Source of the DNA: Paenibacillus sp. | GTDB lineage: Bacteria; Bacillota; Bacilli; Paenibacillales; YIM-B00363 | Direction: 5' to 3' | Assembly (NCBI RefSeq): GCF_035645195.1 | Contig: NZ_DASQNA010000018.1 | Location: 124,001-188,000, forward strand | DNA length: 64,000 bases | Shown here: positions 4,994-9,260 of the stretch, piece by piece | How the letters are laid out: every line of letters begins with the position of its first letter | Numbering within the stretch: the first letter of the stretch is position 1 | The notes under the pieces: model-generated | Databases searched by the model: none | Told to the model about the DNA's origin: nothing | The model's input: the letters and a program-made list of their open reading frames with translations, nothing else | Translations under genes and position numbers: made by a program

Positions 4994-6169
4994 TTGCGCA
5001 CATTCGATAAAATTTGCATGATCGTGCTCGACAGCGTCGGCATCGGCGAGCTGCCGGACGCGGAGAAGTTCGGCGACGCCGGGGCGCACACGCTGGGGCA
5101 TATCGCGGAGCGCGTGCCGACGCTCTCGCTGCCGCATTTGCGCGAGCTCGGGCTCGGCAACATCGCGGGCGTCACGGGCATCGCGCCGGTCGAGAGGCCG
5201 AAGGGCGCGTACGGCAAAATGGCCGAAACGTCCGCAGGCAAAGACACGATGACGGGCCACTGGGAGCTGATGGGCCTGAACGTGACGATTCCGTTCCAGA
5301 CGTACCCGAACGGCTTCCCGCCGAAGCTGATCGAGGCGTTCGAGAAGGAAACCGGCCGCCGCGTCATCGGCAACAAACCGGCGTCGGGCACGGAAATTCT
5401 CGACGAGCTCGGCGAGGAGCAGATGAAGACGGGCGCGTGGATCGTCTACACGTCGGCGGACAGCGTGTTCCAGCTCGCCGCCCACGAAGAGGTGATCCCG
5501 CTCGAGGAGCTGTACGACGCCTGCCGCGTCGCCCGCCGCCTGACGCAGGGCGAATTCGCCGTCGGGCGCGTCATCGCGCGGCCGTACGTCGGGGGACCCG
5601 GCGCGTTCCAGCGGACGAGCAATCGTCACGATTACGCGGTGAAGCCCCCGGCGCCTACGGCGCTGAACGTCCTGAAGGAAGCCGGCAAGGACGTCATCGC
5701 GGTCGGGAAAATCGGCGACATTTTCTCGATGGAGGGCATCACGGAATCGCTGCCGACGAAGAGCAACGCGGACGGCGTCGACAAGACGATCGCCGTCATG
5801 AAGCGGGATTTCAACGGGTTGTGCTTTACGAACCTCGTCGATTTCGATTCGCTCTACGGCCATCGCCGCGATCCAGTTGGGTACGCGCGGGCGCTTGAAG
5901 CGTTCGATCGGTCGCTGCCGGCGCTGATGGAGACGTTCACGGAGCGGGACCTGCTCATCGTGACGGCGGACCACGGCAACGATCCCGTCCATGCGGGCAC
6001 CGATCATACGCGGGAGTACGTGCCGATTTTGGCGTGGAGCCCGGGGCTTGCCGGAGGCGGGACGATCGGCGTGCGCGAGACGTTCGCGGACGCGGGCGCG
6101 ACGATTTTGGACAACTTCGGCCTTCGCCCGATGGAGCACGGCACTTCATTTCTTAAGGAGTTGAACTGA
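4994..6169 (+). CDS. deoB: Phosphopentomutase
   Basis: Mn-dependent phosphopentomutase converting (deoxy)ribose 1-phosphate to the 5-phosphate, the step after nucleoside phosphorolysis. The TTG start at 4994, with AAGGAGGA 7 bases upstream, gives 391 residues beginning [20 protein letters not shown]. That opening motif carries the metal-binding Asp of the alkaline-phosphatase superfamily; [12 protein letters not shown] holds the catalytic Thr; TADHGNDP and TDHTRE near the C terminus carry further metal ligands. Upstream in-frame ATGs at 4931 and 4958 would add non-conserved residues. It is the first gene of the salvage operon deoB-punA-pnp2-pdp. Confidence 0.95.
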
Positions 6170-6174
6170 TACTT

Positions 6175-7023
6175 ATGGCAAACGCAAACGGCAGCCTGAC
6201 CGCTTCGATTCGGGAGGCGGCGGCTTACATCGCGGAGCGGACGACGATCCGTCCGCAAATCGCTCTGGTGCTCGGCTCGGGGCTCGGCGTGCTCGCCGAA
6301 GGCATCGAGGACGCCGTGTCGATCCCGTACAAAGACATTCCGCACTTCCCGGTTTCGACCGTCGAAGGCCACGCCAGCGAGCTCCTCGTCGGCATGCTGG
6401 CCGGCAAGCCCGTGCTAATGATGAAAGGCCGGTTCCATATGTACGAAGGGTACGGGCCGGAGACGGTGTCGTTCCCGGTGCGCGTCATGAAGGAGCTCGG
6501 CGTGACGACGCTGCTCGTGACGAACGCGGCCGGCGGCGTGAACGCGTCGTTCCGCCCGGGCGATCTGATGCTGATTAAGGACCATATCAATTTCATGTTC
6601 CGCAACCCGCTGATCGGTCCGAACGACTCGTCGATCGGCGTGCGCTTCCCGGATATGTCCGAGGCGTACAGCCGCAAGCTGCGCGAGCTCGCCCGGTCCG
6701 TCGGGGAGAAGCTCGGCGTCGAGTTCCAAGAGGGCGTCTACGCGGGCGTGCTCGGGCCGTCGTTCGAGACGCCTGCCGAAATCCGGATGTTCCGCGCCCT
6801 CGGCGCCGACGCGGTCGGCATGTCGACGGTGCCGGAAACGATCGCCGCGCGCCATTCCGGCATCGAGGTGCTCGGCATTTCGTGCATTACGAATATGGCC
6901 GCAGGCATGCTCGACCAGCCGCTCAGCCACGACGAAGTGATGGAGACGGCGGAGCTCGTGAAGGAAGCGTTCATTCGGGTCGTAAAAGGGATCGTCGCGG
7001 AGCTGCCGGACGCGAAAGCGTAA
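6175..7023 (+). CDS. punA: Purine-nucleoside phosphorylase (trimeric, 6-oxopurine type)
   Basis: Class I trimeric purine-nucleoside phosphorylase (282 residues), splitting inosine, guanosine and their deoxy forms with phosphate. Phosphate and sugar sites are visible in LVLGSGLG (32-39), KGRFHMYEGY (84-93), VTNAAGGVN and the GMSTVPET segment. The base-specificity residues of the human enzyme (Glu201, Asn243) are both kept: E198 in GPSFETPAE and N240 in SCITNMAAG. It starts 5 bases after deoB and is followed 40 bases later by a paralogue. A standard PupG/PunA-type enzyme. Confidence 0.95.
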   Translation: MANANGSLTASIREAAAYIAERTTIRPQIALVLGSGLGVLAEGIEDAVSIPYKDIPHFPVSTVEGHASELLVGMLAGKPVLMMKGRFHMYEGYGPETVSFPVRVMKELGVTTLLVTNAAGGVNASFRPGDLMLIKDHINFMFRNPLIGPNDSSIGVRFPDMSEAYSRKLRELARSVGEKLGVEFQEGVYAGVLGPSFETPAEIRMFRALGADAVGMSTVPETIAARHSGIEVLGISCITNMAAGMLDQPLSHDEVMETAELVKEAFIRVVKGIVAELPDAKA

Positions 7024-7063: not shown

Positions 7064-7912
7064 ATGGCTACATATATCGAACAACTGCAAGAAGCGGCGG
7101 ACGCGCTCCGCGCGAAGCTCGGCGGCCGGCAGCCGAAGATCGGCCTCATTCTCGGCTCCGGCCTCGGCGACCTCGGCGACGACATCGCGGACGCGGTGAA
7201 GGTGCCGTACGACGAGCTGCCGCATTTCCCGGTGTCGACCGTGGAAGGACATGCGGGGCAATTCGTGATCGGCGAGCTGGAGGGCAAGACGGTCATCGTC
7301 ATGCAGGGCCGCTTCCACTATTACGAAGGGTATGCGATGCGCAAAGTCGTGTTCCCGGTGTACGTCATGAAGCTGCTCGGCGTGTCGACGCTCGTCGTCA
7401 CGAACGCGGCGGGCGGCATGAACCGCTCGTTCCAAGCGGGCGATTTGATGCTGATCGCGGACCATATCAATCTGACGGGCGACAACCCGCTCGTCGGCGC
7501 GAACGACCCGCGGCTCGGCGTCCGGTTCCCGGACATGTCGACCGCGTACGACGCGGAATACCGCGCGCTGGCTCGCCGGCTCGCCGAGGGCGTCCGGGGC
7601 GAGAGCGGCGAGCCGCTGCGCCTTGTGGAAGGCGTCTACTGCGGCATTAGCGGTCCGACGTACATGACGCCGGCCGAGCTGATCATGCTCGCCCGCGTCG
7701 GCGGCGACGCCGTCGGCATGTCGACGGTCGGCGAGACGATCGCCGCGCGGCATGCGGGCATGCGCGTGCTCGGCATCTCCTGCATCACGGACATGGCGAT
7801 CGGCGAAGAGCTCGAGCCGCTCACGCACGAGCAGGTCGTCGCCGTGGCGAACCGGACGAAGCCGAAGTTCAAGTCGCTCGTCCGCGCGTTCGTGCGCGAC
7901 GTCGAGGTGTAA
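7064..7912 (+). CDS. Second purine-nucleoside phosphorylase paralogue with altered base-site residues
   Basis: A 282-residue paralogue of the preceding phosphorylase, with the same GSGLG, QGRFHYYEGY, VTNAAGGMN and VGMSTVGET motifs, so phosphorolysis itself should be intact. The two residues that hold a 6-oxopurine differ. Human Glu201 corresponds to Met201 (codon 7664-7666, GPTYMTPAE) and human Asn243 to Asp243 (codon 7790-7792, SCITDMAIG); the neighbouring Phe200 is Tyr. An Asp at 243 is known to let the mammalian enzyme accept 6-aminopurines, so adenosine or another purine is a plausible substrate (inference). In the operon between punA and pdp. Confidence 0.85.
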   Translation: MATYIEQLQEAADALRAKLGGRQPKIGLILGSGLGDLGDDIADAVKVPYDELPHFPVSTVEGHAGQFVIGELEGKTVIVMQGRFHYYEGYAMRKVVFPVYVMKLLGVSTLVVTNAAGGMNRSFQAGDLMLIADHINLTGDNPLVGANDPRLGVRFPDMSTAYDAEYRALARRLAEGVRGESGEPLRLVEGVYCGISGPTYMTPAELIMLARVGGDAVGMSTVGETIAARHAGMRVLGISCITDMAIGEELEPLTHEQVVAVANRTKPKFKSLVRAFVRDVEV

Positions 7913-7916
7913 CGCG

Positions 7917-9260
7917 ATGCGCGCGGTCGATCTCATTCGGGCGAAGCGCGACGGAGCGGAGCTGACGCCGGAGCAAATCCGGTTTCTCATCGAGGGCTAC
8001 GTCTCCGGCGAGGTGCCGGATTACCAAATGTCCGCCTGGGCGATGGCGGTGTTTTTCCGGGGTATGACCGCGAGGGAAACGGCGGCGCTGACGCTCGCCA
8101 TGGCGGAATCCGGCGACACCGTCGATTTGTCGGCCGTGCGCGGCGTGAAAGTCGACAAGCATTCGACCGGCGGCGTGGGCGACACGACGACGTTGATTTT
8201 GGCGCCGCTCGTCGCGAGCTGCGGCGTGCCCGTCGCCAAGATGTCCGGCCGCGGCCTCGGCCATACCGGCGGCACGATCGACAAGCTGGAGTCGATCCCC
8301 GGTTTTCGGGTGGAGCTGTCGCAGCAGGAATTCGTCGCGCAGGTGAATCGGATCGGCGCGGCGGTCATTTCGCAGTCGGGCAACATCACGCCGGCGGATA
8401 AGCTGCTGTACGGGCTGCGCGACGTGACGGCGACGATCGAAGCGGTGCCGCTCATCGCGAGTTCCGTCATGAGCAAGAAAATCGCCGCCGGGGCCGATGC
8501 GATCGTGCTCGACGTGAAGACGGGCGGCGGCGCGTTCATGAAGACGGTCGACGATTCGATCCGGCTGGCCGAAGCGATGGTCGCGATCGGCACGGAGGTC
8601 GGCCGCCGCACGGTCGCGGTCATCAGCGACATGAACCAGCCGCTCGGCAACGCGATCGGCAACGCGCTCGAGGTGCGCGAAGCGCTCGCCGTCCTGCGCG
8701 GGGAGAGCGGCGTGTCGCCCGATTTGATCGAGGTGACGCTGACGCTCGGCGCGCATATGCTCGTGCTCGGCGGCGCGGCGCCGTCGGTCGAGGCGGCGAA
8801 GGAGACGCTGCGGGCGAAGCTCGCCTCCGGCGAGGCGCTGCGCAAGTTCGCCGAGCTGCTCGGCGCGCAGGGGGGCGATCCGGCCGTCGCGGACGACCCG
8901 TCCCGCTTGCCTAGCGCCGCGCGCGTCGTACCGGTGCCTGCGCCTCGCGCCGGCGCCGTGACCGCCATCGAGGCCGAGGCGCTTGGCACGGCGGCGATGC
9001 TGCTTGGCGCGGGCCGCGCCACGAAAAGCTCGAGCATCGACCTGTCGGTCGGCATCCGCCTGCTGAAGCGGATCGGCGACACGGTCGACGCGGGCGAGAG
9101 CGTGGCGGAGCTGCACGTGAACGCGGCGATGGGTGGCGAGGCGCTGGACGACGTCCTGCGCCGGACGGCGGCCGCGTTCGAATTGCGGGACGCCGCGGCG
9201 GCCCCGCCGCCGCTCGTCCGCGCGGTCGTGACGAAAGACGGCGTCGAGCGGTTCGATTGA
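7917..9260 (+). CDS. pdp: Pyrimidine-nucleoside phosphorylase
   Basis: Pyrimidine-nucleoside phosphorylase (thymidine/uridine phosphorylase family), 447 residues, making ribose or deoxyribose 1-phosphate that DeoB isomerises. Signature motifs include KVDKHSTGGVGDTTTL (phosphate and K+ site), MSGRGLGHTGGTIDKLE (the family signature), SKKIAAGADAIVLDVKTG and a C-terminal alpha/beta domain ending with a barrel-sandwich region. Reading continues open upstream into the previous gene, but the ATG at 7917, 4 bases after the stop of the second phosphorylase and with GAGGTG at 7904-7909, gives the conserved MRAVDLIRAKRDG start. Last gene of the operon. Confidence 0.95.
   Translation: MRAVDLIRAKRDGAELTPEQIRFLIEGYVSGEVPDYQMSAWAMAVFFRGMTARETAALTLAMAESGDTVDLSAVRGVKVDKHSTGGVGDTTTLILAPLVASCGVPVAKMSGRGLGHTGGTIDKLESIPGFRVELSQQEFVAQVNRIGAAVISQSGNITPADKLLYGLRDVTATIEAVPLIASSVMSKKIAAGADAIVLDVKTGGGAFMKTVDDSIRLAEAMVAIGTEVGRRTVAVISDMNQPLGNAIGNALEVREALAVLRGESGVSPDLIEVTLTLGAHMLVLGGAAPSVEAAKETLRAKLASGEALRKFAELLGAQGGDPAVADDPSRLPSAARVVPVPAPRAGAVTAIEAEALGTAAMLLGAGRATKSSSIDLSVGIRLLKRIGDTVDAGESVAELHVNAAMGGEALDDVLRRTAAAFELRDAAAAPPPLVRAVVTKDGVERFD

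Follow-up and report, generated by a model that had tools for sequence, protein, structure and literature searches.

A tandem trimeric-class purine nucleoside phosphorylase of Bacilli with Asp243 as a predicted adenosine phosphorylase in place of DeoD

The second of two tandem punA genes in a Paenibacillus genome, punA2, belongs to a family of trimeric-class purine nucleoside phosphorylases (PNPs) in which Asn243 of the base pocket (human numbering) is replaced by Asp, and this family and the hexameric phosphorylase DeoD nearly exclude each other among genomes. From the residue and the distribution we conclude that PunA2 is very probably a natural trimeric-class adenosine/2'-deoxyadenosine phosphorylase, which would go back to a single tandem duplication of punA, in some ancestor within the Bacilli, and has since stood in for DeoD. 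Teaching and annotation divide PNPs into two classes, of which the trimeric enzymes act on inosine and guanosine and the hexameric enzymes on adenosine too. Adenosine and deoxyadenosine are cleaved by DeoD, but only poorly by enzymes of the PunA1 type. In 6-oxopurine enzymes such as human PNP, Asn243 bonds O6 and N7 of the base and Glu201 accepts from N1-H (see also PMC5074518).

The locus and its base-pocket residues

The window, a stretch of 64,000 nucleotides of genomic DNA, carries both punA genes between deoB and pdp (Table 1). The spacing is tight, with 5 bases from the end of deoB to punA1, 40 bases from punA1 to punA2 and 4 bases from punA2 to pdp, and by their arrangement and predicted products we read the four genes as a nucleoside catabolic operon. 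The products PunA1 (P0001) and PunA2 (P0002) are 282 amino acids each, and the two reading frames lie where the first-pass annotation had placed them.

Table 1. Features of the nucleoside catabolic locus in the window
Feature	Positions	Strand	Evidence
deoB, phosphopentomutase (ribose-1-P to ribose-5-P)	4994..6169	+	NCBIfam TIGR01696, 567 bits, above cut-off
punA1, ordinary trimeric-type PNP with Glu201/Asn243 (human numbering)	6175..7023	+	TIGR01700, 377 bits, above cut-off; residue alignment
punA2, trimeric-type PNP paralogue with Met201/Asp243; proposed adenosine/deoxyadenosine phosphorylase	7064..7912	+	sequence, alignment, profiles, tree, AlphaFold model
codons Thr199-Tyr200-Met201 of punA2; Met201 in place of Glu201 of 6-oxopurine enzymes	7658..7666	+	sequence and alignment
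Asp243 codon (gac) of punA2, in place of Asn243	7790..7792	+	sequence and alignment
pdp, pyrimidine-nucleoside phosphorylase, same operon	7917..9260	+	NCBIfam NF004747, 625 bits, above cut-off

Alignment to human PNP bore out the residues that the first-pass annotation had read from the two copies: PunA1 has Glu198 and Asn240 (human Glu201 and Asn243), and PunA2, with Met201 and Asp243 instead, is without the pair that reads 6-oxopurines. The human reference sequence used for this alignment is consistent with the chains of human PNP that our searches matched. The phosphate and ribose motifs, which had been described as intact in PunA2, are all kept, with Ser33, Arg84, His86, Tyr88, Ala116, Phe159, Tyr192, Met219 and His257 common to PunA1, PunA2 and human PNP. 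Tyr in place of Phe200, also listed as a trait of the second copy, proved uninformative and was dropped as a mark of the paralogue, as Tyr is the norm in both classes (76/77 PunA1 and 79/80 PunA2). Here the window's PunA1 is the odd one with its Phe200; nearly all other PunA1-type copies read have Tyr, the count being 134 Tyr and 5 Phe with the human enzyme included.

Profile scores placed PunA2 with the low molecular mass, trimeric-class PNPs of the nucleoside phosphorylase-I superfamily (TIGR01697: 330 bits, cut-off 197). PunA2 also scored over the cut-off of the NCBIfam model 'inosine and guanosine-specific' TIGR01700 (335 bits, cut-off 293), a score that does not turn on positions 201 and 243. 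It fell far below that of the methylthioadenosine (MTA) phosphorylase model TIGR01694 (75 bits, cut-off 275) and gave no match to the DeoD model TIGR00107 at E 0.001 in the NCBIfam profile search. An AlphaFold2 model built from a 27-row alignment reached pLDDT 89 and pTM 0.90, with the gate loop (about 241-260) as its least certain part. Its best 50 matches listed among solved structures were all trimeric-class PNPs (Z 38-41), among them the human, T. thermophilus and C. perfringens enzymes at Z about 40. The proposed trimeric-type fold, as opposed to the hexameric DeoD type, thus agrees with profiles and structure matches alike, and PunA2 is probably a homotrimer. PunA2 shares fold, phosphate and ribose residues and 46-52% identity with the trimeric inosine/guanosine PNPs (PunA/PupG, TIGR01700; human PNP), but differs from them by Asp243 in all copies, loss of Glu201 in most and a re-set gate loop.

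The Asp243 class among relatives

Relatives were taken from two sets, 80 loci and whole genomes, of which a few genomes may be in both. Position 243 was Asp in 112 and Asn in 138 of 250 bacterial copies and no other residue in any, a split far beyond chance. All 138 Asn243 copies (PunA1 type) had Glu201, whereas the Asp243 copies had Met (60), Leu (23), Glu (12), Cys (11), Ser (5) or Gln (1) at this position. The classes are also separated by columns 120, 195, 206, 246, 248-250, 253, 259, 263 and 267, most of which lie near the base pocket and gate loop. The dN/dS of PunA2 was about 0.12 (NG86, versus close orthologues), indicating purifying selection.

A quick tree of 121 rows was made without bootstrap after masking columns 200, 201 and 243; in it, the 46 rows with Asp made up one side of a branch with an SH-aLRT of 99. 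The Asp copy stood directly behind PunA1 in 77/80 loci of the first set and in all loci with an Asp copy of the whole-genome set, and deoB and/or pdp were found at 110/111 tandem loci with an Asp copy. These results show that the Asp243 copies are a family and not a local oddity. Inside the Asp clade, the grouping by family (Paenibacillaceae, Thermoactinomycetaceae, Bacillaceae and others) is much like that seen for PunA1, and the simplest reading of the tree is therefore that a single old tandem duplication was passed on, with losses, although the tandem cassette may also have spread by transfer.

That the profile TIGR01700 accepts PunA2, and that tandem paralogues are often kept for dosage, would suit a second 6-oxopurine enzyme retained for dosage, for a stage such as spore germination or for temperature, in which Asp243 and Met201 are neutral for specificity. 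However, Asp243 never varies across this deep clade whereas residue 201 has drifted, mutation of Asn243 to Asp is well documented to switch specificity in this fold, and dosage leaves the exclusion of DeoD described below unexplained. We consider this explanation very improbable.

The first-pass annotation had also suggested that the second copy acts on an unusual base. A hydrophobic residue for Glu201 in most copies would match a base that has no 2-amino group, and isoguanosine, N6-methyladenosine or, as a further candidate, MTA could be such substrates. But position 201 varies freely (Met, Leu, Glu, Cys, Ser, Gln) and therefore has no conserved contact to N1 or C2, and an unusual base does not predict exclusion with DeoD. 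As for MTA, every copy tabulated retains His257, the residue for the 5'-OH, the score against the MTA phosphorylase model is low, and the window's genome already has MtnN for this nucleoside. We judge an unusual or modified base, or MTA, to be very unlikely. With Asp243 alone fixed and residue 201 free to vary, the better candidate for the base of PunA2 is plain adenine, and because of His257 and the low MTA phosphorylase score, ribose or deoxyribose fits better than methylthioribose as the sugar.

In human MTA phosphorylase, Ser178 stands at the position of PNP Glu201. MTA phosphorylase, which acts on a 6-aminopurine nucleoside, resembles PunA2 in its trimeric-class fold and the Asp at its adenine site (Asp230 in the S. 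mansoni enzyme; PMC5147791). It differs by a 5' pocket for methylthio groups, where PunA2 keeps His257.

Distribution of PunA2 and DeoD

If deoD were missing from the genome, the proposal of the first-pass annotation that the pair divides 6-oxo and 6-amino purine nucleosides would gain weight, and deoD is indeed missing. The window's genome (99% complete) encodes four proteins of the PNP/UDP family, namely PunA1, PunA2, the MTA/SAH nucleosidase MtnN and a futalosine hydrolase, and none of them is DeoD. The futalosine hydrolase (C30:285393-285950, L004) lies beside an ORF resembling another enzyme of the futalosine pathway. An assembly gap is an unlikely reason for the missing deoD, given the completeness of this genome and the recurrence of the pattern in single-contig genomes.

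We compared the presence of DeoD (TIGR00107 over cut-off) with that of PunA2 in a class sample of 151 genomes and an order sample of 179 genomes, which have 12 genomes in common and comprise about 320 in total. PunA2 was called by residues, as the score cut-off alone misses divergent copies in G005, G029, G157, G160 and G167; the exclusion is stronger once these are counted. In the class sample, DeoD was present in 2/35 genomes with PunA2 and in 102/116 genomes without (Fisher p 7×10^-20, ignoring kinship). The order sample gave 9/97 and 76/82, respectively (Fisher p 2×10^-32, again ignoring kinship). Eleven genomes of the two samples had both genes. Two controls for kinship pointed the same way: all seven genera with both states (g2, g3, g15, g52, g98, g99 and g104) showed the same direction, and independent pairs on the PunA1 tree gave 0 same-way versus about 5.6 (5-6) of 7 opposite changes (median p 0.03). 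PunA2 and hexameric DeoD thus strongly exclude each other. As PunA2 occurs almost only where DeoD is missing, it very probably replaces DeoD; and since DeoD handles adenosine and deoxyadenosine, and PunA1 does so poorly, PunA2 should supply the adenosine/deoxyadenosine step. As a prediction, the division of 6-oxo and 6-amino purines between the two copies within a trimeric fold is therefore strongly supported.

Some genomes had neither PunA2 nor DeoD (G154, G271, G174, G293, G309 and G315, and 14 class-level genomes, e.g. G018, G039, G021 and G095), and the single PunA copies read in such genomes had Glu201/Asn243. In many genomes of the order (G003, G190, G303 and G305 among them), DeoD was present two or three times, and the scores of the copies fell into two groups, of about 340-360 and 265-298 bits. 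This suggests that a divergent second family of DeoD exists.

Adenosine deaminase was rare in the class sample (17/151 genomes), and among the genomes with PunA2 it was found only in G000 and, weakly, in G061; most genomes with PunA2 are therefore without both DeoD and this deaminase family. G021, mentioned above, has the deaminase. The window's genome also encodes an adenosine deaminase (C41:100963-101937, L145; TIGR01430, 328 bits), so that adenosine can also go via inosine and PunA1 there. This rules out PunA2 as the sole adenosine route in that genome.

Precedents, predicted function and meaning

The claim that Asn243Asp admits adenosine in mammalian PNP held in the literature, and a yeast enzyme adds to it. 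Human PNP N243D is quoted as gaining about 5000-fold in kcat on adenosine (PMC5074518, PMC6128611), and human E201Q:N243D cleaves adenosine-based prodrugs (PMC2799393). In K. lactis PNP, the wild-type is inactive on adenosine, whereas N256D has a kcat/KM of 2.2×10^6 for adenosine versus 1.6×10^5 for inosine (14 times) (PMC5074518). By analogy with these human and yeast mutants, the Asn-to-Asp change can suffice for adenosine use. The engineered enzymes have the same substitution at the same site as PunA2, but were made in the laboratory, while PunA2 is a natural, conserved clade. One natural PunA2 (L098, genome G031, ORF from + 2415), in a genome that also has DeoD, carries Gln201/Asp243, the residue pair of the human double mutant made for prodrug cleavage.

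In our literature search, which lay mostly outside subscription journals, no characterised natural trimeric PNP preferring adenosine was found. The trimeric PNP of Aneurinibacillus migulanus (AmPNP), from a genus with a tandem punA pair, has a kcat/KM of 1.2×10^7 for inosine and 9.9×10^3 for adenosine, about 1000-fold poorer (PMC6983109). We considered AmPNP as a characterised PunA2 and rejected it: by its inosine/guanosine preference and its 66% identity to B. subtilis PNP, as given in that paper, it is most likely a PunA1, and its primer-encoded C-terminus does not end in -LNG or -NG as two PunA2 of Aneurinibacillus do. Being most likely a PunA1 and poor on adenosine, AmPNP illustrates that PunA1 alone would leave the adenosine role open.

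The solved trimeric PNPs 8swt (B. fragilis), 4lna (Spirosoma linguale) and 4m1e (Planctomyces limnophilus) also have Asp at 243, so that this residue alone is not unique to Bacilli; they differ from PunA2 in keeping Glu201 and in not being tandem Bacilli paralogues. The title of the 8swt entry describes crystals with the inosine-type analogue Immucillin H, and Asp243 therefore need not abolish 6-oxopurine use. The literature search found no papers naming these three structures and no statements on their adenosine activity; the enzymes may use adenosine too or be dual.

The Immucillin H complex also bears on a variant that overlaps with the adenosine phosphorylase reading, namely that Asp243 adds adenosine to a substantial inosine and xanthosine activity and that PunA2 is kept as a broad enzyme. 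K. lactis N256D is still active on inosine, xanthosine and guanosine (PMC5074518), and 11-12 PunA2 copies retain Glu201, as would suit such an enzyme. On the other hand, the neighbouring PunA1 already does the 6-oxo work, Glu201 is lost in most PunA2 copies while PunA1 always keeps it, and the exclusion with DeoD marks the adenosine part as the selected one. We regard a broad PunA2 as possible but rather doubtful.

For PunA2 as an adenosine phosphorylase, which we predict from Asp243 and the exclusion of DeoD, activity and exact hydrogen bonds would be as follows. The carboxylate of Asp243 would take the N6-amino hydrogen of adenine, and protonated Asp243 would donate to N7 and activate the adenine leaving group, on the model of Asp204 of DeoD and the equivalent Asp of MTA phosphorylases. 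Loss of Glu201 would remove a contact (to N1-H and the 2-amino group) favouring hypoxanthine and guanine, and Met, Leu, Cys or Ser at 201 may fill that side of the pocket. As the sites for phosphate and ribose are unchanged, down to His257 at the 5'-OH, the sugar would be ribose or deoxyribose. PunA1 (inosine, guanosine), PunA2, Pdp (pyrimidine nucleosides) and DeoB could together convert the pentose of all common nucleosides to ribose-5-phosphate and release the bases. PunA2 would then resemble DeoD (including the B. cereus adenosine phosphorylase) in its proposed substrates, in an Asp serving N7 and N6 and, through the exclusion, in its genomic role, although DeoD (TIGR00107) is another subfamily of the same superfamily.

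Already known are the fold, the type of operon and what mutating Asn to Asp does. What is new, as far as the papers searched show, is that tandem trimeric PNPs form a natural clade in which Asp243 is fixed and position 201 released, and that this clade and DeoD exclude each other. We think it likely that one ancient mutation from Asn to Asp in a tandem copy of punA provided the Bacilli with a trimeric adenosine phosphorylase that repeatedly exchanged with DeoD, that the rule of trimeric enzymes for 6-oxo and hexameric enzymes for 6-amino purines fails for a large natural clade, and that Asp243 may be the sign of other trimeric PNPs that use adenosine, in Bacteroidota and Planctomycetota. The tandem pair is a clean natural experiment on a specificity switch of the base pocket and would offer enzymes for the production of adenosine-type nucleosides. 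If the prediction is true, nature made the same change as the engineers of human and yeast PNP, many annotations are wrong, as TIGR01700 takes PunA2 for an inosine and guanosine-specific enzyme, and the textbook rule that the trimeric type does not use adenosine is contradicted. An explanation would then also be at hand for adenosine salvage in many Bacillales that have no DeoD.
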